Shown: positions 6,711-36,044 of the stretch, piece after piece
Layout: every line of letters starts with the position of its first letter
Position numbering within the stretch: position 1 is the first letter of the stretch
Source of the DNA: Nocardia sp. NBC_00565
GTDB taxonomy: Bacteria; Actinomycetota; Actinomycetes; Mycobacteriales; Mycobacteriaceae
Direction of reading: 5' to 3'
Assembly: GCF_036345915.1 (NCBI RefSeq)
Contig: NZ_CP107785.1
Span: forward strand, 5,208,001-5,272,000
Length of the DNA stretch: 64,000 bases
Made by a program: the position numbers and the translations under genes
Notes under the pieces: model-generated
What the model saw: the letters and a program-made list of their open reading frames with translations, nothing else
Told to the model about the DNA's origin: nothing
Database searches by the model: none

Positions 6711-6924
6711 ATTGGTCTGGTTCGGCTGGATGCGCCCGGCCGGGCAGACCACGCGAAATACCCGCCAGGACGCTCGATCGGGCCAGTAGGCGCACCGGAA
6801 CCATCTGCACTGCCCGACAGAAGCGGATCCGAACACCACGTTCCACCCGATCTACATGAGAGCCCAGCGAACGCCGGCCTCCAACCACAAGTGCACATCC
6901 CATACCTCACCAGGAGGAGAGTCG

Positions 6925-13532: not shown

Positions 13533-16500
13533 ATGGCAGCAGGGTGGGCAGGCGTCGATAGCGAGCTCGCGGCTCACGTGCGGCTACAAACAGAGCAGTG
13601 CCTAGCCGCATATCGGGCAAAACCGAACCTCGTCGAGCAGGACGGCGGGATAGAGCTGTCGAACGTAACCGGCGGTTATGGAAAGAAGCAGCTGTATGAG
13701 CTCGTCCAGAACGCGGCCGATGCTCTGACCGGAGACCATGGTCGTATTGCGCTAGTCCTGACACCGCAGTACCTGTACTGCGCGAACGAAGGACGGCCGA
13801 TGACGCTGATCGGTATCGAAACGCTGATGGCCTCGCACCTGTCGAGAAAGCGAGACGAGGAGATCGGCCGCTTCGGCCTCGGGTTCAAGTCCGTCCTGGG
13901 AATTACCGATCGCCCCGAGATCATCAGTCGAACAGGGTCGGTTCGCTTCGACCGAGATGCGAGCGAACAAGTCGTCAGAACAATCTCTCCCAACGCGCCG
14001 CATACACCCGTTCTGCGAATCGGCGCGGCATTCGATCCATCCGATTCGATATCAGCGGATCCGATGCTGTCGACGCTGACAGAATGGGCGTCCACAGTGA
14101 TCCGGCTCCCACTGAAGAGCGGAATCGACTGGCTTGGCGCAAAACTCCTCGAATTTCCTCCCGAGTTCCTGCTGTTCGCCCCTCAGGTCGTACAGCTCGA
14201 CCTCCACGACTTCACGTCCGACGATCGACGTACCTGGCGGGCCGAGCGGCACGACGATCAGGTCGTTCTGGACTCCGGCGAGAACCGAATCGGATGGCGC
14301 GTGTTTCACACCAAACACCAACCCTCCATGCAGGCGCGCGCGGAAGCCGGCGCGATTACCGGACGCGAAACCATTGACGTGAGCTGGGCCGTTCCCGATC
14401 ACGATCGAGGCAGAACGGGATCGTTCTGGTCCTTCTTCCCGACCAACTCACAAACGACACTCTCCGGCATCGTCAACGCACCATTCAAGACCAACGAGGA
14501 TCGGCACGACATCCTGGAGGGCGACTACAACAGAGAGATTCTGATATCGGTGCTCCCCGGGCTCGTCAGCGCCAACCTCCACAAACTTGTCGATACCGCT
14601 GACCCGGGCTCGATTCTCGATATCCTGCCCGCACGCGGACGAGAGTCCCGGTCGTGGGCTGATCGCGATATCAACGACCCGGTCATGCATGCGGTGGCTG
14701 CCGTGAAGTGCCTGCCGGACATGGACGGCAACTTGCTTCGACCGCTCGGTGTCAATCTGCCACCAGAAATCGTCTCGGAATTCAATACCTGGAAGCCGCG
14801 ATGGGCAGCGGTGCAGGGTAGGCCCAGCAATTGGCTGCACATTTCTGCGGATCGAACCACGGAGCGCCGGTCGAAAGTGGATCGGGTGGCCGCGCTCGCC
14901 AATGCACGTCCGCGAACTCTCGGTGAATGGCTTCGAGCGCTCGCCGTCGCGGCAGGTGTCCCCGGATCGCAAGAGGCAATCAAGTTGGCAGCCCTCATCG
15001 ATGTCAATGCTGGCGACTACGCACTAGAAATGCGCCGCACCGCGCTCGTCCTAGCAGCCGACGGTTCCTACCAGGCTCCGCACCCTGGACGAATCTTCAT
15101 CTCAGACTTCGACAGTGAGTCGACTGCGCAATTCGTCCATCCCGACATCACCGAGGATCTCGCAGTTGTCGATGCACTGAAGACGCTCGGAATCGACCGA
15201 ATGGACCAGGTCGGTCGGCTCAAGGCTCATATCGCACGAATGCAGGGCGCCACCATCACCGGCCCGATGGTCGAACAGCTGTGGAACCTCACCCGGGGAC
15301 TCCCCGAACAGGTCGCTGCCCAGACGCTGTCTCGTGCCTTCGCCGATCGCGAAACTCCGGTCCGATCGATGGCTCGACGGCATTCACCGCTACGCGAATT
15401 GCTTCTTCCCGGCGTCATCGTTCCGGCTGATGGCACCCGTGATGCCGCCATGACGATAGACACCGAATTCCACGCCAAGGACCTTCCTCTGCTTCGCCTG
15501 CTAGGCGCCGCCAGCGAGCCGCAGCTCGCGCGGCCCAGCGACCATGACGAATGGTTCCGCGAATGGGAGGACGCTGCTCGCGACGCCTACCGCGCCTGGA
15601 CCAAAGCCAAGGGGGTGGCAATTCAACCCACAAAGATCCGCATTGCCGTTGGTGACACGTATCGGGGTTTGGATATCGTTCGCACTCTGTCCACCGACGG
15701 CAGGCTCGAACTCACCGAGTTGGTACTCCGCGGCCGACCGGCACCGTGGATCGTGGATTCCACAGGCGGGCCCGGAATGCCGTTCACCAATCCTGCGGTG
15801 TGGTGGGTTGCCCAACATGGTGTTCTGCGTACCGCGTTCGGCGCTCGTCCGGTACGAGATTGCTTCGCACATATCCCTGGCCTGCCCGACGAGTTGCTGC
15901 CCGTCGCGAAGGTGACCGAGGATCAGGCAAAGGCGCTGGGACTTCGGTCCCAGCTCACCGATGGCGATTGGCAGCGAATCCTGCAACGCCCATGGAACTT
16001 CCTGCAGCAAGCACAACTGAACAACCTGTACGGTTTGGCCGCGAGTGTGGGAGCGCAGGCGCCCGACGAGCTCGCCGTCGAAGTCGGCGCCAAGAAGACA
16101 CTGGTCGCACCAGCACAAGCCTGTGTCTCGCTCCGTGACAACGACTCCAAACTCCTGAGCGCCGCAGGCCATCCCGTCATCGAAGCCGCGGATCGGGATC
16201 AGATGAACGCGCTCATCAACCGATGGGGTCTCGAGGACTCCCATGGATTGGTACACCGATCTGTCCTGCCAACCATTTCGGGTGAAGCGACGCCGATGGT
16301 CGATCGGTTTCCCGGTATCCGGGCGATCGTCGCAAATGACCCCGACTTCGACCTCATTCCCTGTTCCGACCTTTCCGTCGAGGTGACCTTGCGCGATGGA
16401 CCTACCTCGACACTGTCGGATCATCGGCTCGTGCGCGACGGCGAGAAGACGATCTACTTCCTGGACAACGCCACCGATGCGGACCTGCTCGCCGACTTGA

Positions 16501-18149
16501 ATACCGCACTCAGACTGGGACTTTCGTCGGCCGACCAGCGACGAATTCTCGATATCGGCGAACGCAGAGAGAAGAACCAGCTTCGCGACCGCGTTCAGAA
16601 GGAGGCCGACCCAGACCGCAAGCTCGTCATGCTTGCCGGTGTCAAGGCGTTGCGTAATGAGGTACCGGCGGGCGCAGTCGAGCTGATCGAATCTCGGTAC
16701 CGGCGAAAAGTGAAGGACGAGGACATCGCGGCACTGGCGCGTGCTTCCAAGGGCGCGGGTCTGTTGGAACGACTGGCACCCGCAATCGAGGAGAAGGGCA
16801 TCACCCTCCCGCGACTCAGAGGCGGCTACCAGGCTCGTCGCGCAATCCAAGAACTCGGCCTGGCACCCGAGTTCGCAGGCAGCACCGTCCCGGCGCCGCC
16901 CCCGCGATTCGAGGTCATCGGCCCGGTAGAACTTCCGAAGCTGCACGACTTTCAGGAAGACGTGGTCGCCAACCTCCTACAGGTGCTACGCCCCGGCGGG
17001 AAGAATCGTGGAATCGTCGCGCTGCCAACAGGTTCCGGGAAGACAAGAGTTGCCGTAGAGGCGTTGATCCGCCACGTTCGCGACTCCGACACCGAGCCAC
17101 TGATCATTTGGATCGCACAATCCGACGAGCTGTGCGAACAAGCGGTCGAAACCTGGTCTTACACCTGGTCCGCCATCGCACCACCCGCGGCCAAACTCAC
17201 AATCAGCCGTCTATGGGGTTCGAACGACACCACTCCCACCCAGGACGGCACTCACCTCGTGGTCGCAACCGACCGGAAGCTGCTTTCACTCAGCGAGAAA
17301 CAGCTCCACGAATGGTTGACCGATGCCGACGTAGTTCTCGTCGACGAAGCACACACCTCCATCTCCAAGACCTACACCGAGCTGTTCCGATGGCTGAAGC
17401 GTAGTGCGCGAGAACGTGATCGAGTCCTGATCGGACTTTCGGCAAGCCCGTATCGCGGGCACAACGAAGAGCAGACTCGTGGGCTGATAAATCGCTACGA
17501 CTCCAATCTCCTCACCGACGGCGTCCTCGGCGAACACCCCCACCAGGAACTCCAACGACGCGGAATCCTGGCACGGGTCCGTCATCTAGAACTCGACGGA
17601 ATGACCCTGACGCCGGGAAAGTCACGAACGAAGACGGAATCGGATGCAATGCATCTCGATGACTATCGGATCGATCTCAATGCTGTCGCTACGAACGATC
17701 AGCGGAACCGCCGGATCCTCGATTCCCTCGAAACTCTGCCTACTGATATGACAGCCCTGGTTTTCACAGCATCCGTCCAGCATGCCGAACTGTTGGCAGC
17801 GGTACTGAGCCACAGCGGCATACCTGCGTCCTCGATCGCGGGACACACACCTGCTAGCGAACGCCGCCGACTGATCGAGCGCTTCAAGGCGAAAGATGTT
17901 CGTGTACTGACGAATTACAACGTCCTATCCCAGGGTTTCGATGCCCCCAAAGTCGGCGCTGTGTACGTGACACGTCCGACGTTCAGTCCGAACCGATATC
18001 AGCAGATGATCGGCCGCGGATTGCGTGGCCCCCGCAACGGCGGCTCCGAGGAGGTCTTGATCGTGAACGTGCGAGACAACATCGAGGCCTTCGGCACGGA
18101 GCTGGCGTTCCATCACTTCGACCGACTGTGGTCCGGCGATGAACGCTGA
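13533..18149 (+). CDS. GHKL (sacsin-like) ATPase fused to SF2 DEAH-type helicase, defence island
   Basis: A 1538-residue protein from ATG 13533 (GGGGCGGAAG upstream). Residues ~40-200 are an HSP90/sacsin-like ATPase: QLYELVQNAADAL is the N-box with the catalytic Glu, YCANEGRPMT replaces the usual DNGxG, and IGRFGLGFKSVLG is the G2 loop. A ~900-residue middle has no motif I recognise. Residues ~1130-1530 are a full SF2 helicase: LPTGSGKTRVAVEAL (Walker A), VLVDEAHTS (DEAH), SASPYRG, and QMIGRGLRGP (motif VI). This pairing suggests ATP-driven sensing plus DNA translocation. The stop overlaps the next helicase by 11 bp. It is not the SNF2-type DrmD of class 1 DISARM as I know it. GC is lower than in the flanking genes by eye. 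Confidence 0.8.
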   Translation: MAAGWAGVDSELAAHVRLQTEQCLAAYRAKPNLVEQDGGIELSNVTGGYGKKQLYELVQNAADALTGDHGRIALVLTPQYLYCANEGRPMTLIGIETLMASHLSRKRDEEIGRFGLGFKSVLGITDRPEIISRTGSVRFDRDASEQVVRTISPNAPHTPVLRIGAAFDPSDSISADPMLSTLTEWASTVIRLPLKSGIDWLGAKLLEFPPEFLLFAPQVVQLDLHDFTSDDRRTWRAERHDDQVVLDSGENRIGWRVFHTKHQPSMQARAEAGAITGRETIDVSWAVPDHDRGRTGSFWSFFPTNSQTTLSGIVNAPFKTNEDRHDILEGDYNREILISVLPGLVSANLHKLVDTADPGSILDILPARGRESRSWADRDINDPVMHAVAAVKCLPDMDGNLLRPLGVNLPPEIVSEFNTWKPRWAAVQGRPSNWLHISADRTTERRSKVDRVAALANARPRTLGEWLRALAVAAGVPGSQEAIKLAALIDVNAGDYALEMRRTALVLAADGSYQAPHPGRIFISDFDSESTAQFVHPDITEDLAVVDALKTLGIDRMDQVGRLKAHIARMQGATITGPMVEQLWNLTRGLPEQVAAQTLSRAFADRETPVRSMARRHSPLRELLLPGVIVPADGTRDAAMTIDTEFHAKDLPLLRLLGAASEPQLARPSDHDEWFREWEDAARDAYRAWTKAKGVAIQPTKIRIAVGDTYRGLDIVRTLSTDGRLELTELVLRGRPAPWIVDSTGGPGMPFTNPAVWWVAQHGVLRTAFGARPVRDCFAHIPGLPDELLPVAKVTEDQAKALGLRSQLTDGDWQRILQRPWNFLQQAQLNNLYGLAASVGAQAPDELAVEVGAKKTLVAPAQACVSLRDNDSKLLSAAGHPVIEAADRDQMNALINRWGLEDSHGLVHRSVLPTISGEATPMVDRFPGIRAIVANDPDFDLIPCSDLSVEVTLRDGPTSTLSDHRLVRDGEKTIYFLDNATDADLLADLNTALRLGLSSADQRRILDIGERREKNQLRDRVQKEADPDRKLVMLAGVKALRNEVPAGAVELIESRYRRKVKDEDIAALARASKGAGLLERLAPAIEEKGITLPRLRGGYQARRAIQELGLAPEFAGSTVPAPPPRFEVIGPVELPKLHDFQEDVVANLLQVLRPGGKNRGIVALPTGSGKTRVAVEALIRHVRDSDTEPLIIWIAQSDELCEQAVETWSYTWSAIAPPAAKLTISRLWGSNDTTPTQDGTHLVVATDRKLLSLSEKQLHEWLTDADVVLVDEAHTSISKTYTELFRWLKRSARERDRVLIGLSASPYRGHNEEQTRGLINRYDSNLLTDGVLGEHPHQELQRRGILARVRHLELDGMTLTPGKSRTKTESDAMHLDDYRIDLNAVATNDQRNRRILDSLETLPTDMTALVFTASVQHAELLAAVLSHSGIPASSIAGHTPASERRRLIERFKAKDVRVLTNYNVLSQGFDAPKVGAVYVTRPTFSPNRYQQMIGRGLRGPRNGGSEEVLIVNVRDNIEAFGTELAFHHFDRLWSGDER

Positions 18150-19950
18150 CATGGATGCCCTCCGGCTGGACGAAGTCCAGCAAGCGATCGCCAAGTCACC
18201 GATCGATGCTCGGCTGCTGGTCGTCGCAGGGGCCGGGCAGGGCAAAACCGAGGTGGTCGCCGCGCGAGTCGGTCACCTGGTCCGGGAGGAAGACCTCTCG
18301 GCGTCACTAGAGGTTCTGGTCCTCAGCTTTTCCCGGGCAGCAGTCGACGCCGTCCTTCGCCGTCTGGACCTTCGCGAAGTCGCTCGGGCCAACGTGCGCA
18401 CGTTCGATTCCTTCGCCAACCGCCTTCTGATCGACGGAGGAATTGATCCGTCCGGTGACTTCGATGCCCGGATCCGGCAGGCGACGAAGTACCTGGCCGA
18501 AGCCGACGAGCCGCCTTACGAACTCAAGTCGCTACGGCATGTGGTCATCGATGAGATCCAAGATCTGGTCGGCGATCGTGCGGAGTTCGTTCTGGCCGTA
18601 CTCCGGTCGCTCGGGGATGATGTCGGCATCACCGCACTCGGCGATCCGTTACAGGGCATCTACGACTTTCAGCTCACCAAAAGCAAGAGCAAGTCCGACT
18701 CCGCCGATGTCTTCGCTGTTCTTCGAGCCGAGCTTGGGGCGCAAGAGGTTTCGCTCGACAGGAACTACCGCGCCCGTGGATACGACCCGAAGCGAGTAAT
18801 CGAACTCGGTGATCGCCTCCGGATCGAAGAAGACGCCGGTCGAGCAGGCGCCATGATTCGTGAGTTCGATGCCGGATTGCCGCATCTGGGCGGCAAAGAC
18901 AGCTGGATCGATGTGCTCGCAAACCACCGCGGTCGCGCCGCAGTCCTCTGCGTATCCAACGGGGAGGTGCTACGCACGTCGCAGCTGCTACACGAAGCCG
19001 GCGTGCGCCATGTAGTGCGACGGGCCGCTCAGGAATTCGGTGCGGCAAGCTGGATCGCGCGTGCGTTAGGGGGCTTCGACCGCATCGATGTGGCACGCGC
19101 GGATGTCGAGGCCGCTTTCGCCTCCCTTCCGGACGGTGTTGCCCCTGATGATGCCTGGTATCTCCTCAAGGAAGCAGAGGGTATCTCGCGAAACAACCGC
19201 TCCCTGAATATGATTCGACTTCGTTCACTGATACGTTCGGGTGCTGTCCCACTCACGTTGATCGAGCATGACACGGCCGAGATCATCGTATCGACGGTCC
19301 ACAAGTCCAAGGGCTTGGAATACGACCGAGTGTTCCTGGTAGATCCCGTATACCTGAAAGCCGATAGCAACTCCTGGCCTACGATTCGGGCCCGCTACGT
19401 CGGGCTCAGCCGTGCCAGGGACAAGGTTCTCGCCTGCGATATCCCTGCACCACGCGCGTGGTTCTGTAACGACTCCTGGGACCGCGAACGACTCCTCGAG
19501 AAGGTTCCCGGCCGTGGAAAGTCACGGCGTACCCAGTCAATGGAGTTCTGCCACACGGATCTCTGCGTCGACGAGCCCTATGGCGACGAACTGACTGCTC
19601 GCGAAGTACAAACCAAGCTGAGCGAGGGATTCGACGGCGCCCGTGTGGAAGCGCGACTCGACCGGTCCAGATCCACGCGTGAACATCCGTCCTATTTCTT
19701 CGTAACTGATCAAGGAGTCGAGATCGGCCGCTCGAGTGCAATCTTCGACGATGCATTCACCAAGGCGTTCCACTGCGCGTCACGCTGGCCTACGCGATTG
19801 ACCGGACTATCGGTGATCGCCGTCGAAACCGTTGCGGGCGAACCGCGATCGACCGAGCACGCTCATCTGGGCGGATCAGGTCTGTGGCTCGTGCCACGCC
19901 TCGTCGGGATGGTACGACCGGATTGGACCGAGAGAGAGGACATGGCGTGA
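18139..19950 (+). CDS. UvrD/Rep-like SF1 helicase, defence island
   Basis: A 603-residue superfamily 1 helicase-like protein. Walker A is GAGQGKTEVVAARV (about residues 32-45), motif II is VIDEIQDLVGD (DEIQ instead of DEAQ/DEAD), motif III-like is TALGDPLQGIYDF, motif V is STVHKSKGLEYDRVFL and motif VI is YVGLSRARDKVL. The C-terminal ~150 residues have no recognised domain and no nuclease motif. It begins at ATG 18139, inside the preceding helicase gene (11-bp overlap), and ends in a GTGA overlap with the DrmA-like gene, so all three are translationally coupled. ATP-dependent 3'-5' translocation on invading or damaged DNA is a reasonable guess; substrates are unknown. Confidence 0.82.
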   Translation: MNADMDALRLDEVQQAIAKSPIDARLLVVAGAGQGKTEVVAARVGHLVREEDLSASLEVLVLSFSRAAVDAVLRRLDLREVARANVRTFDSFANRLLIDGGIDPSGDFDARIRQATKYLAEADEPPYELKSLRHVVIDEIQDLVGDRAEFVLAVLRSLGDDVGITALGDPLQGIYDFQLTKSKSKSDSADVFAVLRAELGAQEVSLDRNYRARGYDPKRVIELGDRLRIEEDAGRAGAMIREFDAGLPHLGGKDSWIDVLANHRGRAAVLCVSNGEVLRTSQLLHEAGVRHVVRRAAQEFGAASWIARALGGFDRIDVARADVEAAFASLPDGVAPDDAWYLLKEAEGISRNNRSLNMIRLRSLIRSGAVPLTLIEHDTAEIIVSTVHKSKGLEYDRVFLVDPVYLKADSNSWPTIRARYVGLSRARDKVLACDIPAPRAWFCNDSWDRERLLEKVPGRGKSRRTQSMEFCHTDLCVDEPYGDELTAREVQTKLSEGFDGARVEARLDRSRSTREHPSYFFVTDQGVEIGRSSAIFDDAFTKAFHCASRWPTRLTGLSVIAVETVAGEPRSTEHAHLGGSGLWLVPRLVGMVRPDWTEREDMA

Positions 19951-22900
19951 GCGAGAACATGGATCCAGCGCTGAGCGAGAAGTACCGATTCCGCCGCGAG
20001 ATGATCGAAGAACTCGCCCGCGATGTCGTAGGGCCCGAACCCGACGAAGAAGAAGTCCTCGACGAGGCGCCGCTGGATCGATATGTCGTCGGTGTCCTAT
20101 GGCCCGCCGACGAGGCACGGCAGGACACTCCGGAACCCGATGGGGTCGAGTCGAAGGAAACCGACACGATCGAGGACACCCCCGTCGCCCAAGCACGAAT
20201 GCGATACCCGTCGTCGATGGGACTTACCTTCTCCGTGCGCGTTTCGGCTGCTCGATCGATCACTATCACCGCCGAGGCCGCACACTACGTCGGCCTGGAC
20301 GAGCCGGGTGGCTCGACGGGCAGCAGAAAGCCTGCCCGCGACAGCAAGTGGAAGCGGGTTCCACTCACTCTGCCGACGCTCGACCAACAGCTAGGTCATC
20401 CCGGGACCTACGCGGAGGAAATTTCGCCGGGACTGCAGCTGCATCGCTATGTTCGGCCAGAGCGGGATGGCATCGTCACCGTCTCGGTCAGTCTCCGAAA
20501 TGTGCAGGAAACTCCCAAAGGTGAACTACGAGATGCGAAGGCTTGGTTCCAGGTCGGGCTCACGATCGACACCGCGGTACCCGCGATAACCGACCGAACT
20601 CAGCATCGACGTTCGGGCTACGACCGTGATCTCGACAGCGCGGCATTGCTATACCGCCATATGCACACTTTCGCAGTCGGCCACGGCTGTGCCGCCACGT
20701 GGAACCGCTCGACCAGCGTCGACGGCATGGTTGCCACCGTCGCGACGACCTTCCTACCCACCTACGAAGTTTCGCGTGCCAGGCCCGGTGCGCTCGACAG
20801 CACGACAGACCTCCGCATGCACACCCTCTCCGCCGCAAGCGATGCGGAGGTAATCGCCAACCTCCGCGCGTTGACGAGCGAGTATCGATCCTGGATCGCC
20901 GGGCTCGACACCCGAGTCACAGGCGGGGATGCCGATATCGCCGACGACCTCATGGACACAGCATTTCGGCATATCGACGATGCCCGTACTGCCGCAACCC
21001 GCATCGAGGCAGGCATCGCACTGCTCGAACGCGACCCGGACTCCATGCGGGCATTCCGTCTTGCCAATCGAGCGATGCAACGACAGCGCGCCCGTCAGGA
21101 GTGGATCCGTGGCGGTGCGACCGGAGAGATCGACGCCGGTGAGAGCCAGCGCTGGTATCCCTTCCAAATCGCCTACATACTGCTCAATCTCCCTGCCTTG
21201 AGCGATCGACATCATCCGGATCGCGAAATCGCGGATCTACTCTGGTTTCCCACCGGTGGTGGCAAGACCGAGGCATATTTGGGGCTCATCGCATTCTCTA
21301 TCATTCACCGCAGACTGAAAGATCCTACGGCGATCGGTGTCGCCGTTATCATGCGATATACCCTGCGGCTGCTCACGATTCAACAGTTCGAGCGCGCTTC
21401 TATGCTTATGTGCTCGTTGGAGACAGTTCGCCGAGCGGACGAATCAGCGCTGGGTACACGGCCGTTCTCGATCGGTCTATGGGTCGGTGCGGGCGGCACG
21501 CCCAACACGCTCGACGAGGCCCGCCGATCCATCAATGAGCTTCAGCAGCGTCGAGAGATCGCCGAGAAGAATCCACGCCAGCTGACCCAATGTCCTTGGT
21601 GTGGTGCACCTCTCGAACCCGCCAACTATGCGGTGGTACTTCGGCCGGAGCGCCATCTCCGAATCGCCTGCAGAAACCAGGGTTGTGACTTTGCCGAAGG
21701 TCTTCCGGTTCATGTGGTCGATGAGGATATCTACAACGCCCGCCCGGAACTGATTCTCGGCACTGTCGACAAATTCGCAATGATGGCCTGGAATCCCGAT
21801 GTCGGCAAGCTGTTTGCACGCGACGACGACGGTTCACCCCCGGATCTGATCATCCAGGATGAGCTCCATCTCATCTCCGGTCCACTGGGTTCCATGGTCG
21901 GCCTGTACGAAACAGCTATCGACGCGGCGTGTTCCGTGCGATCCCTCGGCGACGTAAGCACTTACGGGCTCCCAAAGGTGATTGCCTCTACCGCAACCAT
22001 CCGGCGAGCGGAAAAGCAGATCGAATCAGTCTTCGCCAGATCAGCACAGCAGTTCCCGCCGCCCGGCATCGATCCCGATAGGTCCTTCTTCGCGGAGCCG
22101 GCCCCCCGGGATGCACTCGGAACGCGAGAATACGTGGGGATTATGGCGCCAGGCGCCAGCCACGCGACGTTGCTGGTGCGCGTGTACACGGCATTGTTGC
22201 AAGCCGCAGCAGATACCGTCGGCGACGATCAGACACGCGACCCATACTGGACGCTGTTGGGGTATTTCAACAGCCTGCGTGTCCTGGGCAGTGCGAATCT
22301 GCAGGTCGAGGGCGATGTGCGCGAACGACTCGGCTTGGTGGCCAATCGCAAACAGACATCGGCGCGCCCCTTGGGACCGCTCAACGAGCTGACAAGCCGG
22401 GTTGCCTCGTCCGAAATTCCGGAGCGGCTCAAGCAGATCGAGAAGAGCCTCAAGGACGGGGAACCCGATGATGTCGTCCTGGCAACCAACATGATCTCGG
22501 TCGGCGTCGATATCGACCGGCTCGGACTGATGGCCGTGATGGGGCAGCCACAATCGAGTGCTGAATATATCCAGGCCACCAGTCGGATCGGCCGACGGCA
22601 CCCCGGCCTGGTCGTCGCTATTTTCAACAGCGCACGATCTCGAGATCGTTCGCACTACGAGAACTTCATCCCCTATCATCAGGCGCTCTATCGTGCGGTC
22701 GAAGCCACTAGCGCAACACCGTTCGCAGCGCGCGCCCGCGACCGAGGCCTACACGGTGTTCTGGTATCACTGGCACGGTTGCTCGTCCCCGCACTCACCG
22801 CGGACAACGCAGCCTCGCTCGCCGGAAGGTACTGGGATGAGCTGCAAGAAGTTGCAGCGATCGTGGTTCGGCGGGCAGCACAGGTTGCCTCGGACGAAGG

Positions 22901-23147: not shown

Positions 23148-24871
23148 AGATCGGCGCGAAGGCACGGCGAAGTCAGCTGCTGAGTACCTACGGGATCGGC
23201 GGACTGTTCCCTTACGAGACAACGAGTTTCATGATCGTTGGACTGGACGAGTGGAAAGCCGAACGAGCCACTACGGTCAGCGAGCCACGGCTTGCCCGTT
23301 CCCTGCATGTGCACGAATTGAAGTCGCCACCTGCAGGCACCCCCCGCGATATCCCGGTGATTCGGTTCCCGGCAACGCAGGTGTGTCCGTCCTGTCGACG
23401 CATCGGCTCGATGCAGGATCTAGCCCGCGATTGGAACGTCGCGAAATGCGCTCAATGCCGGGACAAGCCGGATCTCACGCCTTTTCGTCTGATCGTCGCG
23501 TGCCTACGCGGACATATCGGTGAGTTCCCCTACTACCGCTGGCTGCACAAGGGACAGGCAGGCGCCGAAACCAAGCACGAGATGAAGCTGAAGGCGCTCG
23601 GTCGAACCTCGTCACTGGCCGACCTCGTACTCGAGTGCAATTGCGGGGTACCGCCCAGGTCGTTGGATGGGGCAACAGCACCGAAAGCCCTTGCGGAGTT
23701 CGGCCCCTGCAAAGGCGCACGCCCGTGGCTCGGACCCGACCATACGCAGGACTGCGCCGAAGTACCCAAGGTCGTACAGCGTGGTGCATCGAACGTCTGG
23801 TTTCCCGCTGTCCGCTCGGCAATCTCGATCCCACCGTATTCCGAGGCACTGTCGAAGTTTGTGGACAAGCATTGGACCGCGCTGCACGATCCCGATGCGG
23901 TGACCGACAAACTGCTCGACAACTTCGCCGCCGCTTCCCGAGGACAGTTCACCGTGGAGGACATCGTCGGCGAGATCGAGCGACGCCGAGGCGAAATGAA
24001 TGGCGCGGACATCGACGAGGAGATGCTCCGCCGACAAGAGTTCAAGGCGTTGATGGAAGGACGCGCCGACAGCGGCGAGACCGGATCTGACTTTGTGTGT
24101 GTTCCGATGACGTTGGATAACGATCTACCGTCCGTTGTCACCGAGGTCAGGAAAGTAACTCGGTTGCGCGAAGTCCGTGCACTGTATGGGTTCTCACGAC
24201 TGGAAGGCGCCATCGCACCCGATACCGAGACCCTGTGCGAACTCTCCCATACCCAGAGCCATTGGCTGCCCGCGATCGAAGTCATCGGCGAAGGCATCTT
24301 CATCGCGTTCGACCGCGACGATCTCGATGAATGGGCAGAGAAACCATTCGCCACAGACCGGCGTCTGACTCTGCAGCGGGCCGCCGATGCGCGAGCGCGC
24401 GAGTATGGGAGGCCAGAGGCACCTGGTGTGGACATAGTCCAGGTCGCGTTGCACACACTCGCACACGTGATCATCGACCAACTCTCGCTCGATGCGGGCT
24501 ATCCTGCGGCGTCACTGCGTGAACGGTTGTTTGTCGATACTGACGTCGCTGGAATACTCGTCTACACAGCAAGTTCCGACTCCGCGGGCAGCCTCGGCGG
24601 CGTAGCCTCGCAGGCGGAGCCCGACCGATTTGCAAGTGCACTGCGCGAAGGTTTGACTCGCCTGTCGTGGTGCTCGGCCGATCCGGTGTGCATCGAAGCG
24701 AAGGGGTCGGGCGTCGATGCCTTGAATCTGGCTGCCTGCCATGCGTGTGTGCTCGTGCCGGAAACATCGTGCGAGCTCAACAACACCTATCTCGACCGCG
24801 CGTTGCTTTTCGGCACACATGAGGATGATCAAGAATCCGAAGGTATCTTCAGCGGTTACCTCGGCTGGTAG
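23144..24871 (+). CDS. drmB: DrmB-like DUF1998 protein
   Basis: A 575-residue protein starting at GTG 23144, with a strong GAGGAG upstream and a GTGA overlap with the DrmA-like gene. It opens with GAKARRSQLLSTYGIGGLFP, typical of DUF1998 proteins. Four Cys lie at about residues 81-107 (VCPSCRR and KCAQC). The C-terminal DUF1998 domain shows ALHTLAHVIIDQLSLDAGYP, then the CSADPVC and CHACVLVPETSCE cysteines. In DISARM the DUF1998 protein DrmB pairs with DrmA to recognise and restrict unmethylated incoming DNA. A longer in-frame start would overlap the DrmA gene by 79 bp and is less likely. Confidence 0.8.
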   Translation: MKIGAKARRSQLLSTYGIGGLFPYETTSFMIVGLDEWKAERATTVSEPRLARSLHVHELKSPPAGTPRDIPVIRFPATQVCPSCRRIGSMQDLARDWNVAKCAQCRDKPDLTPFRLIVACLRGHIGEFPYYRWLHKGQAGAETKHEMKLKALGRTSSLADLVLECNCGVPPRSLDGATAPKALAEFGPCKGARPWLGPDHTQDCAEVPKVVQRGASNVWFPAVRSAISIPPYSEALSKFVDKHWTALHDPDAVTDKLLDNFAAASRGQFTVEDIVGEIERRRGEMNGADIDEEMLRRQEFKALMEGRADSGETGSDFVCVPMTLDNDLPSVVTEVRKVTRLREVRALYGFSRLEGAIAPDTETLCELSHTQSHWLPAIEVIGEGIFIAFDRDDLDEWAEKPFATDRRLTLQRAADARAREYGRPEAPGVDIVQVALHTLAHVIIDQLSLDAGYPAASLRERLFVDTDVAGILVYTASSDSAGSLGGVASQAEPDRFASALREGLTRLSWCSADPVCIEAKGSGVDALNLAACHACVLVPETSCELNNTYLDRALLFGTHEDDQESEGIFSGYLGW

Positions 24872-24879
24872 GGACAACC

Positions 24880-27081
24880 ATGAAGACTCAGGTCCTGATC
24901 CACGATCTGTTTCACAAATCCTTCGCTGCTTTGGACGGCAGTGTCCGCAACAGGGTGATGCCCTTCATCCTCAAAATGCAGCAGGAGCCCGAGTCAGCGG
25001 GGTTGGACCTCAAACAACCCAAAGCTGCAGCCACCAAGTACGTTCGAACGGCTCGAGTGAACGACCAGTATCGCGCCGTCCTCCTAGCAGCGGGTGAGAG
25101 CGCTGATCCCCCGGCGTTGTACCTGGTCGCCATTAAGAAGCACGACGAGGCGTACGAGTATGCGCAGAAACTCACGCTGCAGGTCAACGCCAAGACCGGA
25201 GCAGCCGAGTTGTTCGACGCCACCGCGCTCGACGAAGCAGTTGATCAGGCACGCCGGAAGCCGGCAGTCAACAGAGCCACGACTACGCTGATCTCGGCAA
25301 CCGTGAGCCAGTCGGACATCGAACGATTCGGCGTAGACCCAACCGTCGCAGCGCAGCTGAAACTTCTCACCGACGAGGATGCGCTCGAACAGATCATCAC
25401 CGCCCTGCCCGCGTCGCAAGGCAACGCGGTGCTCGATCTCGCCTGCGGCAGAAGCCCGGACGAGGTATGGCGCGACCTCGTTGTGGAGGATCCGGGCCAC
25501 ATCGACGTCGACGACTTTGCCATCGCCCTGCAACGACCGTTGTCACGGCTGAGTTTCAGCACGGTCGATGTCGACACCGGTGACGAACTGCGCAGGATGT
25601 TGGAAGGTGATTTCGCCAAGTGGCGGGTGTGGCTGCATCCACTCCAGCGAAAGCTGGCCACGCACACCGGATGGAAGGGGCCTTTCCGAGTGACCGGCGG
25701 CGCTGGCACCGGAAAGACGGTCACAGCGGTACACCGAGCACGCTTCCTCGGAAATCGGCTCCATTCATCCACGCAGAAGGTACTTTTCACCACATTCACG
25801 AAGAATCTCGCGCTTTCGATCGAGAGCCAGTTGAAGCAGTTGGCCGGTCCGAACGTGCTCAGAAACATCGATGTCGTGAACATCGACGCGCTGGCTCGAC
25901 GCGTCGTCGTCGCGACCGATATCGGTCGCATTGCCGCTGGGACCGCTACATTTGTCTCCGACAACGATCCCCGGATCCGCGACATCTGGTCCAGGGCGGC
26001 CTTGGCCGCCACTCGAACATGGGATCCGGCATTCCTCGCCGAGGAATGGTCACAGGTCGTGTTGGGCCATGCGATCACTACTGAAGCAGGCTATCTCCGG
26101 GTCGCGCGCAGCGGACGCAGTGAGCGACTGAGCCGCTCTCAGCGGGTCGATGTCTGGCAAGTCATCGAGCAGTTCGAGCGACTCATGGGTTCAAGCGCCC
26201 TCATGACATTCACCCAACTCGCGGCGCGTGCCACCGCCATGGTGGACACCGACGATACGTTGCGCGCGCAGTTCGCATATCGGCACGCGGTAATCGACGA
26301 AGCACAGGATCTACATCCGGCACACTGGAAACTGTTGCGCACATTGATCCCGACCGACACCGATGACCTGTTCATCGTCGGAGACGCACATCAACGGATC
26401 TACGGAAAAGCCATCCCTTTGTCGCGCTTCGATATCGAGACAAAAGGTCGATCGCGCAGACTGACCATCAACTACCGGACGTCCAAGGAGATTCTCGGCT
26501 GGTGCTTGGAGGTCATCGACAAGCAGGTCGATGACCTCGACCTCGCCACCGAGACCTTGGCAGGCGCGCGGTCGGTCTTCAGCGGCCCGGAGCTCGACAT
26601 ACGCGGCTTCGCCTCCGAAGCCGCTGAACTCCAGGGAATCACGAAGTGGATCGGTAGCAGACATGAGGAGGGTTACGCACTCGCCGACATCGCCGTGTGC
26701 GCGTTCGAGCACCGGCAGGTCAATGACATCCGTCAGGCGCTGACCGCGGAAGGCATTCCGAACGTCGAGATCAATGAACGAACCGACGAGGAAAACCTCG
26801 GCGATACGGTCAGGGTGATGACAATGCACCGAGCCAAGGGACTGGAGTTTCGGGCAGTCGCCCTACCTCAGCTCAGCGCGGAAACATTCCCGCCCTACTA
26901 CGTGCGCAAACTGAAAGGGTTCGAACGACAGCAGGCAGAGCATCGGCTCCGGTGTGTTCTCTATGTCGCAGGCTCCCGAGCACGGGAACGCCTGGCACTG
27001 AGTTGGTCTGGAATCCCATCTCCGCTCCTACCTCCACGCCGCGTCGCCGATTCAGCAATTTCGACCGAGTTCGATCGGTAG
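24880..27081 (+). CDS. RelE-like N-terminus fused to UvrD-type helicase
   Basis: A 733-residue protein from ATG 24880, eight bases after the DrmB-like gene. Residues 1-~110 (VLIHDLFHKSFAALDGSVRN through YLVAIKKHDEAYEYAQK) resemble the RelE/ParE mRNA-interferase fold as seen in some UvrD-like helicases; the catalytic residues of active RelE are not evident. The rest is an SF1 helicase: Walker A GGAGTGKTVTAVHRA (~272), VIDEAQDLHPAHW (~474), FIVGDAHQRIYG, TINYRTSKE, VMTMHRAKGLEF and YVAGSRARERLAL. It is the last gene of the plus-strand arm and converges on the methyltransferase, with 14 bp between the stops. It may clear complexes or unwind targeted DNA in the same system. Confidence 0.8.
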   Translation: MKTQVLIHDLFHKSFAALDGSVRNRVMPFILKMQQEPESAGLDLKQPKAAATKYVRTARVNDQYRAVLLAAGESADPPALYLVAIKKHDEAYEYAQKLTLQVNAKTGAAELFDATALDEAVDQARRKPAVNRATTTLISATVSQSDIERFGVDPTVAAQLKLLTDEDALEQIITALPASQGNAVLDLACGRSPDEVWRDLVVEDPGHIDVDDFAIALQRPLSRLSFSTVDVDTGDELRRMLEGDFAKWRVWLHPLQRKLATHTGWKGPFRVTGGAGTGKTVTAVHRARFLGNRLHSSTQKVLFTTFTKNLALSIESQLKQLAGPNVLRNIDVVNIDALARRVVVATDIGRIAAGTATFVSDNDPRIRDIWSRAALAATRTWDPAFLAEEWSQVVLGHAITTEAGYLRVARSGRSERLSRSQRVDVWQVIEQFERLMGSSALMTFTQLAARATAMVDTDDTLRAQFAYRHAVIDEAQDLHPAHWKLLRTLIPTDTDDLFIVGDAHQRIYGKAIPLSRFDIETKGRSRRLTINYRTSKEILGWCLEVIDKQVDDLDLATETLAGARSVFSGPELDIRGFASEAAELQGITKWIGSRHEEGYALADIAVCAFEHRQVNDIRQALTAEGIPNVEINERTDEENLGDTVRVMTMHRAKGLEFRAVALPQLSAETFPPYYVRKLKGFERQQAEHRLRCVLYVAGSRARERLALSWSGIPSPLLPPRRVADSAISTEFDR

Positions 27082-27095
27082 CCCATGGAAACGGT

Positions 27096-28238
27096 TCACG
27101 AGTCGATAGCGAACAAAGCTCCAGAACACTTATCTTCTATAGCATCCCCGACGCCAAGCAACTCCTGCCGTACCCCACCTTTGGAATTCTCCCAATCATC
27201 CGCGACGACAGCATTCAAAGCGTCCTCGTTCGGCGCCTGATCGAAAATTGCCCAGCTCAGAACATGAACCGCTAACCGTGGCGGCATGGCGTTCCCGACC
27301 TGTTGAGCAACATCCTTGCCGGACCAGGGATAGTCGTGCGGAAATGTCTGCAAGCGTCCAGAGTCGCGAGTGTCCAGATTTCTGAGGTATCGTCCATCGA
27401 GAGTGACCATCTTGTTCCGTGAAACTTTTCCAGTCACCGTATAGGCGGGCTCGTCGAAACGACGTTCACCGCGCGCTTTCGGATCACCACCTGAGCCGTA
27501 ATTGGAAACGACAACAAATTCTTTGTCCGGCTCCAGCACTGGCCCCATGGTCAACCAGTTAGGCAGATGAGCATCCCCGGCAGGTTTCACATCACCTCGG
27601 CGGAAGACCCTATGTGTTGGTTCCGGAAGCTGCGGCTGGCGATGCAAGTGGGCCACCAGGATCGCGCGACGACGAGTCTGCGGCACACCGAATTGCTCGG
27701 TTCGGAGAATACCGGTATCAACCTTGTATCCCCTCGTCTCGAGTACCGATGCCATTCGTTCCCATACCGGGAGTACCGCCGGAACTTGCTCCAGGACAAT
27801 GACTTCGTACGCACAGTCATGGATATCGAAAGCGTCGAGTGCCCACCGCAACGGTTCCAGGACCAGGCCGGTGCGCTCGTCTCGCAGCTTCTTCAGTTCG
27901 ACCTTGACCGTCTTATCGCCTGCCCCCATACGATCGACGAAGTTGAGCACCTCGTCGAGTGCTTCACGGCCGACACCGGATCCAGCAACCGAGAATGTCT
28001 GACACGGCGGACCCCCAGCGAGCACTTTCGCCTTCGAAAACAACTCCGGCCCTAGGTCGCGGACATCCTTGTGCGATGTAAGTAATCCCGCAGCTTCCCT
28101 TGTCGCATAAGCGTTGTCGTCCCATTCGACGCCGTGGACCGAGATCCCCAGCCAGTGCGCGGCGACGTCCATACCACCGGGACCCGCGAACAGGTCGATC
28201 ATCTGGGCAGGTGCAGCCTCCCCCGCATCTGACGCCAT
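27096..28238 (-). CDS. DNA (cytosine-5-)-methyltransferase
   Basis: A 380-residue C5-cytosine methyltransferase. Motif I is MIDLFAGPGGMDVA, motif IV with the nucleophilic Cys is LAGGPPCQTFSVAG (about residue 78), motif VI is VLEQVPAV, where EQV replaces the common ENV, motif VIII is QTRRRAIL and motif X is QQVGNAMPPRLA. The target-recognition region (about 225-300) is short. It is related to the Dcm/DrmMII group and would mark host DNA as self. No Vsr mismatch endonuclease or cognate restriction gene is adjacent. It is the last gene of the minus-strand arm, 147 bp behind the Z1 gene. The sequence specificity cannot be read. Confidence 0.9.
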   Translation of the reverse strand: MASDAGEAAPAQMIDLFAGPGGMDVAAHWLGISVHGVEWDDNAYATREAAGLLTSHKDVRDLGPELFSKAKVLAGGPPCQTFSVAGSGVGREALDEVLNFVDRMGAGDKTVKVELKKLRDERTGLVLEPLRWALDAFDIHDCAYEVIVLEQVPAVLPVWERMASVLETRGYKVDTGILRTEQFGVPQTRRRAILVAHLHRQPQLPEPTHRVFRRGDVKPAGDAHLPNWLTMGPVLEPDKEFVVVSNYGSGGDPKARGERRFDEPAYTVTGKVSRNKMVTLDGRYLRNLDTRDSGRLQTFPHDYPWSGKDVAQQVGNAMPPRLAVHVLSWAIFDQAPNEDALNAVVADDWENSKGGVRQELLGVGDAIEDKCSGALFAIDS

Positions 28239-28385
28239 ACTGCAAGATCATAGCCGGCGGGCGCGGATCACGCGCCGCACCTCACCGATTCGGTGTCCAT
28301 ACTCTGAGTTCGAAGGAGAGCCATCTTCGGGAGCCGCACACGTGCCTCGCCTTGGTCTGAACATATTGAAGCTCTGGCGACGGTC

Positions 28386-31340
28386 CTACGCACCTGTGGC
28401 ATCAATTATCGGGGTATCAGTCGACGAATCGATCGTGGTGAACCGGACGACACGCTCTTCGCCACGCAGTGCACCCGCCGGAGCGACGAAGGTGAAGGCC
28501 ATCACGACGCGAGCTGCATCGAACGGCCCAACGGCACCTGTCTCTGCTGGTTGACTCGGTTCGATGATTGGGTAGAGCACAACGACCCCGCGCCGATCCC
28601 CAACCAACCGCTCGGTATTCGTTTCGCTGGAATCACCCAACGCCCCGGCAATTCGGTACGCGACTCCACGATGTTTGGGGTCGCTGATCACACCGAACAA
28701 CGGATTGCGACGTCGCTCACGTCCGAACCACGAGAACGTGCGGCCTGCGGTGCCGAGCTCGATCCGATTCCCGCCCCGAAGATGTTGGGGCGCCAGGACG
28801 ACCCAATCGTCAACGAGAGGATTGCCCTCGTTCGTGATCTGGCGGAGGTACTGGAGGTGTGGGGCGAACTGACTTGGAGCTCGCCATTTCAAAGCATCGA
28901 CCAAACTGAGGAACTCGGTTGCATCCAGCCTGCCGGTGAAAGCCGGGTAGGCATGCGTCTTCTTCGGGTCTTCGAAGTTGTAAGCAAGACTGGTGGTTTC
29001 GGCGGAGAGTGCTTCTAATACCGGCATCCACAGGCGCGTGTTGTGGCGCAAGTCCGGCGCCGCCGTCGGGTACGCCGTCGGTTCCACCCACTGTCCTGGG
29101 CTTTGAATCTCGACCAATCGGGAGTTGTACATCTTGTTCGGACTCGTCGGCTTGAGGCCCGGCAGGTGTTGGGCAACCAACGGTGGCACCTGAGCGGGCG
29201 TCACCTGTGGCTCTCCGTCGACCAGCACGGCGTACTGCGCCAGCTCACCGCGGAAGCTCTCCTCGTCTAGGCAGACGGCCTCGAATGCCTTATACAGGTC
29301 GACTCCCTGTTTGCGTGGGCCGACTTCCTCTCGCCCGATGTACAACCGCACCAAATCGCGGTATCCCTTACGGAACCCGAACCAGCGACCCATCTGCATC
29401 AGAGCCGACACATTGGTGGCCCGCCGACGGAAGTACGAGACCGTCAGGCCTTCGATCGTGAATCCACGAGATAGTTTCTGGCCGCCGATGAGGATCTTCC
29501 ATATAGACCGCTTGTCGAAATCCGCTTCGCCGGTTTCCAGGTCCTTATCACCGTTGACCACGATGATCGGCTTATCGTCGCCGCCGATGCGCACCACAGC
29601 CGGACTGACGTATGGCATCAGCTCGTCGTACGAATTCGGAACGGCCTGACCTACGGCGTGCACCTCTGAAACGAGTGCAAGGTCACTGTTGAAGAGCGCA
29701 CGAAGCCGCTGATGTCCGGCTGGGCCGGAATACCCTGAGTCCAACCACAACTTGGTGACTCGGCCGAGTAGTTCGCGGTGAACATCGATCCAGCTGGATT
29801 CGTGGATCAGCATGGTGTGGTGCTGGAAGTAGCGATCGCCGAGGCCCTGAGCCTCACGGTAGAGCTTCATCGCTGCCGTGAGCACGAACATGTCCATCGC
29901 CTGTTGTAGGCAAGTCGCATCATCGTCGTCCTCGACGACTACGTCGCGAATGAAGGCTTTCTCGTTCGAATTCAGGATGGAGCGGTCCGGCTCAGCGACA
30001 TCGGAGTCGAGATCATGGAAATCGCTGGCACCCATATATCCGTAAGGACGCGGGAGCGAGACAATGAAGTCCTTGGGGAAGATGTCGGCGGAGTCGCTCG
30101 GATCGATGAAGACGTTGGCGTATGGAGTCGCGGTGTAGCCGACGTACTGCGCGCGGGGCAACATCTTCAAGAGCTCGGAGATCTTCTGGTTGATCGCGGT
30201 ACGATCAACATTCGGCTTCGATCGAGATGTGTTGACCGAAGCCTCGTCCGATTCGTCGTCGATGATCAACACAGGGATGTCGGACAGCGGAGTCTTGATC
30301 TTGTTGAGGTCTTTGACGAGCTTTGCGAGTACTGCCTTGTTCTTCTTGACCACCATCAACCGGGCAGAGGAACGGTACAGGTTGCGCGCGTCGTATAACG
30401 GCAGGGCCGGTTCCTGCTTCTCGAACTCAAGAGCGACGATGCCTTGGAGCAGGCTCTTGTAGTCGTCGTTCCTGGTCGTCATGCGCACGATATCGAAGCC
30501 ACCCAATACCGAAGGCAGACCACCGAACTCCACGAACTTCCGACGGATCCACTCGGGATCGTCGGCGTAGTCGGATTCGAATTCGCTTGCGCCGCGCAGG
30601 ATATTCTCGCGTCCGACAAGTTCCATATCGAGCCTGCGTTGAGTTTGGCCACGAAGCAGATTGAGGGTGCCACCGAGGACGATGACGAGTCGGTAGCCAG
30701 CGTCGACTGCTTTGGCGATTACACCGGTGAAGTTGGCAGTTTTGCCGGACTGGACGTAGCCGACGACAAGGCCTTTCGATTGGTAGGCATCGACACGGGT
30801 GGGGTCCGTGAGACGTTCGACGACGCTATCGGTAGCGACGTCGAGCGCTGAGATGGACTCGGCGGACCAGCCCTTCTTGGTCAACAGCCCCATGTACGAC
30901 GGCCAATACCAGGGGCGTCCCTGTTGTGATGCGGGGGTGTACCACGGGGCGAACTTGTCGCTGATCACCACCGGCGGAACGGCTTTTGAGACCGGGACCA
31001 GTGCCTCGAGCAATTTGCAGGTTCCTCGTTCGAGATCGAGGAGGCGGTAGATGTCGGCACGGCGCGCGTCGGTGCGGGCGCCCGATGACGACCACACGGG
31101 GTCTTCGGCGAAATCCCACTGCGTCATCTGCTTTCGCCACATGTCCACCAGGCGATCACTAGGCGCGGAGATTAGTAGTGCCTCCCGGAAATCGTCCTCA
31201 TGAGCGTGGACTTCAACCTCGGGCGGCATGTCCTCGGCCTGATAGGCCATCGCCTTGGCCAGCCTTTTCGGCCTGCTGCCGCCCATATCCGCAAGCACCG
31301 CGCCATGCAGTGCGATGCGCAGCGCTCCCCCTTCGGTCAT
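28386..31340 (-). CDS. Z1-domain ATPase (CglI/NgoAVII-type helicase-like subunit)
   Basis: A 984-residue protein. Walker A VVGYVQSGKTANFTGV (~residue 192) and Walker B VLIIDDESDEASVN (~358) mark an SF2-like ATPase. The following Z1 domain includes FPKDFIVSLPRPYGYMGASD and the signature region SRGFTIEGLTVSYFRRRA with MQMGRWFGFRKGYRDL. Z1 domains occur in the ATPase subunits of CglI and NgoAVII restriction enzymes and beside Dcm, Vsr and GHKL genes in defence islands. In CglI this subunit drives translocation and cleavage by a separate B3-PLD nuclease; no such nuclease is present here. The start ATG 31340 overlaps the stop of the GHKL gene (ATGA). Confidence 0.85.
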   Translation of the reverse strand: MTEGGALRIALHGAVLADMGGSRPKRLAKAMAYQAEDMPPEVEVHAHEDDFREALLISAPSDRLVDMWRKQMTQWDFAEDPVWSSSGARTDARRADIYRLLDLERGTCKLLEALVPVSKAVPPVVISDKFAPWYTPASQQGRPWYWPSYMGLLTKKGWSAESISALDVATDSVVERLTDPTRVDAYQSKGLVVGYVQSGKTANFTGVIAKAVDAGYRLVIVLGGTLNLLRGQTQRRLDMELVGRENILRGASEFESDYADDPEWIRRKFVEFGGLPSVLGGFDIVRMTTRNDDYKSLLQGIVALEFEKQEPALPLYDARNLYRSSARLMVVKKNKAVLAKLVKDLNKIKTPLSDIPVLIIDDESDEASVNTSRSKPNVDRTAINQKISELLKMLPRAQYVGYTATPYANVFIDPSDSADIFPKDFIVSLPRPYGYMGASDFHDLDSDVAEPDRSILNSNEKAFIRDVVVEDDDDATCLQQAMDMFVLTAAMKLYREAQGLGDRYFQHHTMLIHESSWIDVHRELLGRVTKLWLDSGYSGPAGHQRLRALFNSDLALVSEVHAVGQAVPNSYDELMPYVSPAVVRIGGDDKPIIVVNGDKDLETGEADFDKRSIWKILIGGQKLSRGFTIEGLTVSYFRRRATNVSALMQMGRWFGFRKGYRDLVRLYIGREEVGPRKQGVDLYKAFEAVCLDEESFRGELAQYAVLVDGEPQVTPAQVPPLVAQHLPGLKPTSPNKMYNSRLVEIQSPGQWVEPTAYPTAAPDLRHNTRLWMPVLEALSAETTSLAYNFEDPKKTHAYPAFTGRLDATEFLSLVDALKWRAPSQFAPHLQYLRQITNEGNPLVDDWVVLAPQHLRGGNRIELGTAGRTFSWFGRERRRNPLFGVISDPKHRGVAYRIAGALGDSSETNTERLVGDRRGVVVLYPIIEPSQPAETGAVGPFDAARVVMAFTFVAPAGALRGEERVVRFTTIDSSTDTPIIDATGA

Positions 31341-32881
31341 CCGGATTCTCCTGACTCGTCGTCGAGCTGGTTAAGCTCGGCTCGGGCGGCCGAGACGAGG
31401 ACGGATTGCCAGAGTTGGAGGTTGTCCTTGACTCGGGGGCCGCTGAATTCCGTTTCGAAGATGTCGTGCACGAGAAAGTACATGAGCGACTTCAGCAGTG
31501 GGGCGTCGTTGAGGGTTCCTCCGCGGCCACCGAGGATGGCGGCGCGGTAGCGTCGGTTGAGTGCGATGGTTCGGGTGTCGCGGTCTATGTCGAAGAAGAC
31601 GTCACCTGCTAGTTTGCGCCACTGGGCGGCGATTGGCTGTTCACCGGGCAGGATCGGCAGCTCTTCTTCGATGGATTCCTTGACCGCCGGGGCGAATCCG
31701 GTGCCCGGTGGGATCACCGGCTTACGTTGGGTGCCTGATCGTTTCCGCGCCTCTCGGTACGTCAGCTGGGCATCTGCGATGTATTCGGTGAAAGCGCGAC
31801 CGCTCGCGTCTTGTGCGCGTTCTACCGCAGACGCGAATTCCGGTGTGGCCTCGACACCTTCTTTCTTCACGCTCAGTCGCAAGACGTCACCCGCGTCTGC
31901 GGGCAGGTCGACGTCGACCCTGGCCAGCGACAGATATGGCTCAGGCTGGCGGACGTTGTTCCAGCCGCCCGCCTGAACGATGCGACCGTTGCGATAGAAG
32001 TAGAAGCCCTGGCGCTCCAGCACCGACCCAACGGACTTGTATTCGTCCAGTGAGGATTTCGGCGGCCAGATGTGGGCGGTCAGTTCAACCCTGCCGATCG
32101 ACGGGACCTCGGCCACGAAGGTGCGGGGATAGTCCCGGTGACCAGTGACCGGGTAGCCGAACGGATTGAGCGGTACGACACCGAAGTTCATGTATACATC
32201 GCGGGAGCGGATGTCCTCGACAGCAATGGTGATGTTGAAGTCGTCACGCAGGAGGAAGCGGTGCAACTGCAAGCCGAGGTGCAGGCCGAGCTTGTTGATG
32301 GTGCGATGCAGGTAGCGATCGGTTTGTCCACCACCGCCGTGCTGAGGGAAGTTCTTGACGCCATCCCAGCGAATCACCGTGCCCTGCCAGATGATCGGAC
32401 AGTCTTGGTAGCGGTCGATCAGCGTCTGGGCGTACCGCGGTTCGACGATGTCGCATTGAAAGCCGGTGACGGCTCGTTCCATTACCCAACGTCGGCCTGC
32501 GGGCCTGGTTTTGCGGGTTCTGCTGGTTACGGTTACTGCGGCCGCGTGGCTGAGCGACGCCGATTTCAGGCCGGTGCCGAACATGCCGAGGGCAGTAGGC
32601 GAGTAGTGATGTCGACCGCCGACCGTCATCGCGACGTCGAGCTCCTCGTCGGTCATGCCACGTCCGTCATCGATTACCAACAAGCTGACGAGGGCGTCGC
32701 CGTCGCGTAGGAAATGGATGACCACATCCTTGGCGCCTGCGTCGATGGAGTTGTCCACGAGGTCGGCGATGGCGGCTTCGAATCCGTATCCCTGGCTGCT
32801 CAGGGCCTCCATATATCTGGCGTCGGGTGGCAGGAACTTGCTGCCCGTCGTCGGGACGTCGAACTGCCACTCTTCTGCCAT
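31337..32881 (-). CDS. GHKL/MutL-like ATPase of the Z1-Dcm module
   Basis: A 514-residue protein from ATG 32881 (GGGGTGG just upstream; GTG 32887 is the alternative). The GHKL fold is clear: N-box FEAAIADLVDNSIDAGAK (about residues 32-49), G1 box VIDDGRGMTDEE, and G2 box LGMFGTGLKSASLSHAAA. The C-terminal part (to FGISG-like strands and WRKLAGDVFFDIDRDTR) is conserved among ATPases adjacent to Z1 proteins. It is first in the minus-strand arm and coupled to the Z1 gene by ATGA. It probably acts as an ATP-dependent clamp or sensor with the Z1 ATPase. Its promoter must lie in the 70-bp gap or inside the upstream oxidoreductase relic. Confidence 0.85.
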   Translation of the reverse strand: MAEEWQFDVPTTGSKFLPPDARYMEALSSQGYGFEAAIADLVDNSIDAGAKDVVIHFLRDGDALVSLLVIDDGRGMTDEELDVAMTVGGRHHYSPTALGMFGTGLKSASLSHAAAVTVTSRTRKTRPAGRRWVMERAVTGFQCDIVEPRYAQTLIDRYQDCPIIWQGTVIRWDGVKNFPQHGGGGQTDRYLHRTINKLGLHLGLQLHRFLLRDDFNITIAVEDIRSRDVYMNFGVVPLNPFGYPVTGHRDYPRTFVAEVPSIGRVELTAHIWPPKSSLDEYKSVGSVLERQGFYFYRNGRIVQAGGWNNVRQPEPYLSLARVDVDLPADAGDVLRLSVKKEGVEATPEFASAVERAQDASGRAFTEYIADAQLTYREARKRSGTQRKPVIPPGTGFAPAVKESIEEELPILPGEQPIAAQWRKLAGDVFFDIDRDTRTIALNRRYRAAILGGRGGTLNDAPLLKSLMYFLVHDIFETEFSGPRVKDNLQLWQSVLVSAARAELNQLDDESGESG

Positions 32882-32950
32882 ATCCACCCCACTGCGTCAA
32901 CAAATCCAGCCGAGACCTCTAGCCAGAGATCCGAGGATTGCGGACGGTTG

Positions 32951-35812: not shown

Positions 35813-36044
35813 CGGTAGCAAGTCTAGAGCGGCGGAATCGCGGCGGTGAGGGCGGCCGATGCGTTAGCGGGCTATACGAACCCTGAGGCCGATATGTCGC
35901 GGGCTAGGGGAATTGTCATTCCAAAGGCTGATTCTTCCCTCGAATCCCGTGCGAGCTCTGGCCTTTCAGGCGAATGCGGCAGAGGGTGAATGGGCAGTGG
36001 GGGATGGCGAACGCGCAGTTCGCCGCAGATAGGAAGGATTGACG

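Follow-up and report, generated by a model that had tools for sequence, protein, structure and literature searches.

Do the eight genes at positions 13533-32887 of a 64,000-nucleotide (nt) stretch of Nocardia sp. NBC_00565 DNA (contig NZ_CP107785.1, positions 5,208,001 to 5,272,000; hereafter the window) encode one defence system, or several that stand side by side? A preliminary description of this island had allowed for either one new system or two neighbouring ones. We give a probability of about 0.72 to the joint reading that the island combines independent defence modules at a Nocardia hot spot, and that four of its genes, P1, P2, DrmA and DrmB, exemplify a conserved DrmC-less class related to DISARM. 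The window's genome is a single contig of 9.7 Mb, and all eight frames of the island are intact:

13533..18149, plus strand: P1, sacsin-type GHKL ATPase with a C-terminal superfamily 2 (SF2) helicase, 1538 amino acids (aa) (NCBIfam, Pfam)
18139..19950, plus strand: P2, superfamily 1 (SF1) UvrD/GajB-like helicase, 603 aa (Pfam UvrD-helicase, 5e-19)
19947..23147, plus strand: P3, DrmA helicase, 1066 aa (NCBIfam DISARM_DrmAS)
23144..24871, plus strand: P4, DrmB, 575 aa (NCBIfam DrmB_fam, Pfam MZB)
24880..27081, plus strand: P5, probable RelE-like N-terminus with a UvrD-type helicase, 733 aa (PHROG, AlphaFold2 model)
27096..28238, minus strand: P6, Dcm-type C5 cytosine DNA methyltransferase, 380 aa (Pfam DNA_methylase, 3.2e-29)
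28386..31340, minus strand: P7, MzaC-like
31337..32887, minus strand: P8, MutL/MORC-like GHKL ATPase, MzaB-like, 516 aa (Pfam HATPase_c_3, 1.5e-21)

The NCBIfam and Pfam profile matches, together with the intact frames, indicated that the eight genes and their domain assignments, as first described, are real. The earlier naming of DrmA and DrmB was likewise upheld by hidden Markov models, both proteins scoring above the curated NCBIfam cut-offs (DISARM_DrmAS, 1026 bits against 950; DrmB_fam, 457 bits against 240) and matching the solved Serratia proteins (7s9v_A, E = 2.4e-177, and 7s9v_B, E = 1.4e-71, respectively). The longest frames begin at 19884 for DrmA and 23069 for DrmB, and the most likely starts are the GTG codons at 19947 and 23144. 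DrmC, the PLD nuclease typical of DISARM and described as absent from the island, gave no match to model NF038319 anywhere in the genome of the window (E 1e-10). P1 scored 68 bits with P_loop_sacsin (cut-off 50), and its Pfam ResIII and Helicase_C domains were above cut-off. The middle of this protein, about 740 aa, has no recognised fold: an AlphaFold2 model of residues 400-1140 reached a predicted local distance difference test score (pLDDT) of 88, yet had no significant PDB match. In P2, the Walker A and DExQD motifs were kept across 62 aligned sequences.

To place these genes, we scanned with the window's DrmA, which returned 345 relatives; the best 80 were kept as loci and underlie all counts out of 80 given here. 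The order P1-P2-DrmA-DrmB, on one strand, was found in 72 of these 80 closest loci, in many genera, with median gaps between matched segments of 18, 36.5 and 19 nt across the core. According to their record titles, 79 loci are actinomycete and one (L031) is from Chloroflexota. Among the eight exceptions, three (L014, L024 and L056) run into a contig end, one (L038) carries P1 inverted, 3.8 kb past DrmB, and four (L007, L009, L013 and L021) had no full P1 in the flanks. P2 has an N-terminal extension of ~430 residues in the last three of these, with no Pfam match to the extension in the L009 protein. A helix-turn-helix protein (PDC-M33A-like) was present in 49 of the 80 loci; in Streptomyces it lies mostly upstream of P1 on the opposite strand.

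We then examined 328 genomes of the same order, in which a DrmA model matched 68 loci that we sorted by match shape: 28 are canonical, with a single block, 31 share the two-block shape of the window, and nine are weak. The two-block set combines the window's branch with a sister branch and is not a single branch. DrmC lay within 12 kb of DrmA in 26 of 28 canonical, 0 of 31 two-block and 1 of 9 weak loci. The corresponding figures for P1 were 0 of 28, 18 of 31 and 0 of 9, respectively, which are lower bounds, as the two best P1 candidates were scored per genome. Of the 20 strong P1 matches, two were not beside DrmA, one being about 34 kb off (G067) and one on a different contig (G221). In 14 of 26 loci examined further, a relative of a NERD-UvrD helicase adjoins DrmA, and Pfam detected NERD in both such proteins tested. 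P1 lies in the stretch for four of these 14 loci (L129, L130, L132 and L172) and outside it for L114 (G225); no P1 match was seen for the remaining nine. In a 52-row DrmA tree, a branch with a Shimodaira-Hasegawa-like approximate likelihood ratio test support of 100 set off the P1-type rows, and the same held for the DrmC-type rows; the NERD rows required three changes. In the open-licence literature, we found no paper mentioning DISARM together with sacsin and no title or abstract start describing P1-P2-DrmA-DrmB, which is not proof of novelty. A term search of the main text of PMC12458937 found neither "sacsin" nor "GHKL".

The MZA system comprises MzaA-E, and the minus arm resembles part of it. 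P8 matched NCBIfam MzaB at 113 bits and P7 matched MzaC at 257 bits, but both scores are far under the equivalog cut-offs (850 and 1500, respectively), and a Dcm stands in place of the DUF4420 (MzaD) and AIPR (MzaE) proteins. Pfam detected neither of the latter among the eight genes; a search of the window's genome for MzaD also found none, with its control genomes likewise giving no signal. P8 additionally matched structures of MutL and MORC (E = 5.2e-4 to 3.2e-3). P6, which contains a GGPPCQ motif, matched the PADLOC DrmMII model at 1.3e-18 and a generic type II model at 3.3e-88. An MzaD-type DUF4420 gene was present in all 19 loci with distant P7 relatives (at most 51% identity), mostly between P8 and P7. 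Among 13 distinct loci with P7 of at least 64% identity, the MzaD-type gene occurred only in L150 and Dcm only in L006, L079, L133 and L150; L113 and L151 are close to contig ends, where genes may be lost from view. P7 was found at E 1e-100 in 16 of the 78 genomes of the genus. In one stretch (L136, 4766-7671), the P7 relative consists of two overlapping frames instead of one. Judged from sequence, the minus arm is best read as a separate reduced MZA-like module, in which a Dcm joins an MzaB/MzaC-like pair and MzaD and MzaE are missing.

The site of the island is itself variable. Two genes border it:

6856..7944, plus strand: GFO/IDH/MocA oxidoreductase, left border (Pfam)
33377..34789, minus strand: CoxE-like VWA protein, right border (Pfam VWA_CoxE, 4.7e-41)

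The MocA-type and CoxE/VWA genes were 0.17-25.4 kb apart in all 22 genomes of the genus with both on one contig, and related strains hold different genes between them; the site is a Nocardia hot spot. Within it, to the left of the island, positions 8653-12105 encode a 1150-aa protein in which a Ser/Thr kinase is joined to a STAND/NACHT-type NTPase and a TPR-like region. This gene is missing from that place in L135, because the MocA gene comes within 0.4 kb after P1 there. An AAA ATPase gene at 34928-35821 is judged MoxR-like from its position beside the CoxE/VWA gene.

Taken together, these data argue against a single-system reading of the eight genes, which is not sound, and support the preliminary interpretation in part. 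The full set recurs in 1 of the 80 closest DrmA loci, and the minus arm occupies the same hot spot without the plus arm in another Nocardia (L133). That both arms nevertheless work as one system is improbable: P8-P7 pairs occur without DrmA in stretches L113, L143-L149 and L151, and 78 of the 80 DrmA loci have no close P7/P8 pair within the examined flanks. P6 could be a DrmMII-like self mark of the DrmAB core that lies beside P7/P8 by chance, a view we hold to be unlikely but worth weighing, given that Dcm genes of at least 50% identity to P6 occur in 19 of the 80 core loci, upstream of the core in 13 of the 19, and that close P7/P8 are missing from 17 of the 19. However, the P8-P7 pair of L133, a stretch in which no DrmA was found, is followed by a P6-type Dcm, and in L079 such a Dcm shares a 4-nt overlap with P7.

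It could also be argued that the plus arm is a degraded DISARM locus that has lost DrmC, been joined by unrelated helicases and is decaying or non-functional. The lack of DrmC from the genome would fit this, as would the N-terminal region of DrmA, which is about 130-150 residues shorter than in its Serratia counterpart. By contrast, the intact frames, the conserved active-site motifs and a four-gene order kept across so many loci and genera make decay very improbable.

P5 forms a module of its own. Its residues 1-93 matched positions 1-88 of 88 of a PHROG RelE-like toxin (E = 0.0023), and this part had no Pfam or PDB sequence match. The top PDB matches of its AlphaFold2 model (pLDDT 84) were UvrD, and the Joint Genome Institute names of P5 relatives fit a RelE-like/UvrD architecture; P5 is thus a probable RelE-like/UvrD fusion. 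P5-type genes occur in 7 of the 80 loci, and in L003, L006 and L007 they come straight after DrmB on its strand. The P5 N-terminus had 59 matches in the 328 genomes, and for 19 a DrmA lies no more than 20 kb away; such a match accompanies 9 of the 28 canonical, 7 of the 31 two-block and 4 of the 9 weak DrmA loci. In other genomes of the order, P5-type genes lie close to canonical DISARM loci (L163-L167). In L020, L026 and L044, the DrmAB core is accompanied by a P5-type gene on the opposite strand. In L020 and L026, the P5 relative is beside a gene for a YprA/DruE-type helicase with an MZB domain, which we infer to be ArmC-like and which is perhaps part of an ARMADA-like set.

The core has other partners elsewhere. 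Relatives of the DrmD-like protein of L010 were present in 12 of the 80 loci; the neighbour of this protein has relatives in nine. This neighbour scored 1038 bits with a type IIG restriction-methyltransferase model versus 176 bits with DrmMI; because the former fits far better, L010-type loci may encode a type IIG enzyme and not parts of class 1 DISARM. In L005, L008, L010, L011, L016, L019, L021, L023 and L024, DrmA/DrmB precede genes for a DrmD-like helicase and for a large methyltransferase, the latter scoring higher as type IIG than as DrmMI.

How does the island compare with known systems? As in DISARM, DrmA and DrmB are adjacent, in the same order and above cut-off, with a C5 methyltransferase close by; unlike DISARM, the window has no DrmC, and P1 and P2 add two helicase genes to the operon. 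Neither DrmE (class 2) nor DrmD (class 1) was among the matches listed, which for P1, P2, P5 and P6 are the top 25 PADLOC rows. The helicase domains of P2 and P5 match GajB models of Gabija, but no GajA-type nuclease was among the Pfam matches of the eight proteins. The GHKL/sacsin N-terminus of P1 matches the PADLOC model TmtA, which we take to belong to the system named Tiamat; however, the best match covers TmtA profile positions 12-411 of 1538 rather than the full length, and P1 ends in an SF2 helicase. The minus arm shares a MutL-like GHKL ATPase, a helicase-type ATPase and a cytosine methylase with the MORC/paraMORC restriction-modification neighbourhoods of PMC2292703, but no Vsr or other restriction endonuclease was recognised. 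Compared with CglI/NgoAVII, as given in PMC4267653, the window has a GHKL protein in place of a recognised PLD-B3 R-protein, and no PLD family match was found by Pfam among the eight proteins.

PMC12458937 covers the DISARM, Dpd, Druantia, ARMADA, BRIGADE and TALON branches, and gives ArmD of ARMADA II as a RelE-like protein with a GajB-like UvrD. The architecture of P5 fits ArmD by that description, not by ArmD sequence. The eight genes differ from ARMADA II as described there in lacking ArmA (BrxHII-like), ArmB (PglX-like) and ArmC (YprA with a fused MZB); among the eight, Pfam found neither an N6 methylase nor a protein that combines Helicase_C with MZB. Because RelE-like/UvrD proteins adjoin DrmA in several genomes, P5 points to a possible connection of DISARM with ARMADA II.

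From the observed gene content, homology, recurrence and separability, we infer the antiphage function and every step of the following mechanism. In module 1 (13533-24871; P1, P2, DrmA and DrmB), DrmAB would load onto exposed single-stranded or 5'-overhang DNA of the invader, by analogy with the Serratia DrmAB structure and the loading on such DNA reported in PMC9142583, which also reports DrmC to be non-essential. P2 and the SF2 helicase of P1 might then enlarge the stretch of DNA that is unwound or blocked. P1's GHKL head may serve as an ATP-driven dimerisation clamp or gate, as in MutL and Hsp90. The outcome would be a replication block, or DNA cut by a nuclease other than DrmC; candidates are, in the sister branch, the NERD domain of the helicase that takes the place of P2 and, in the window's branch, a nuclease of the host or the uncharacterised middle part of P1. 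Module 2, P5, would be a RelE-like/UvrD accessory that may cleave RNA once its helicase engages DNA. Module 3 (27096-32887) would pair the reduced MZA-like ATPases with a Dcm that marks self DNA. Possibly, the DrmC-less core, the accessory helicase and the reduced MZA-like module share a methyltransferase.

At a more tentative level, and at less than even odds, DrmAB could be a loading platform with swappable effectors of at least three classes: DrmC, a NERD SF1 helicase, and P1 with a plain SF1 helicase, P1 being the effector of the third. In the window, one Dcm may be a self mark that the third class shares with a nuclease-less MzaBC pair. On such a platform, the role of P1, whose middle has a confidently modelled fold, would be that of a nuclease not yet recognised or of a GHKL-gated DNA clamp, which would block replication and leave the DNA uncut.

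For DISARM, the core offers a natural class with no DrmC beside DrmA (0 of 31 two-block loci), with other helicases in the operon and a NERD nuclease in the sister branch, so that how DrmAB acts without DrmC can be tested by gene removal. The MzaBC pairs without a nuclease in Nocardia raise the parallel question for MZA.
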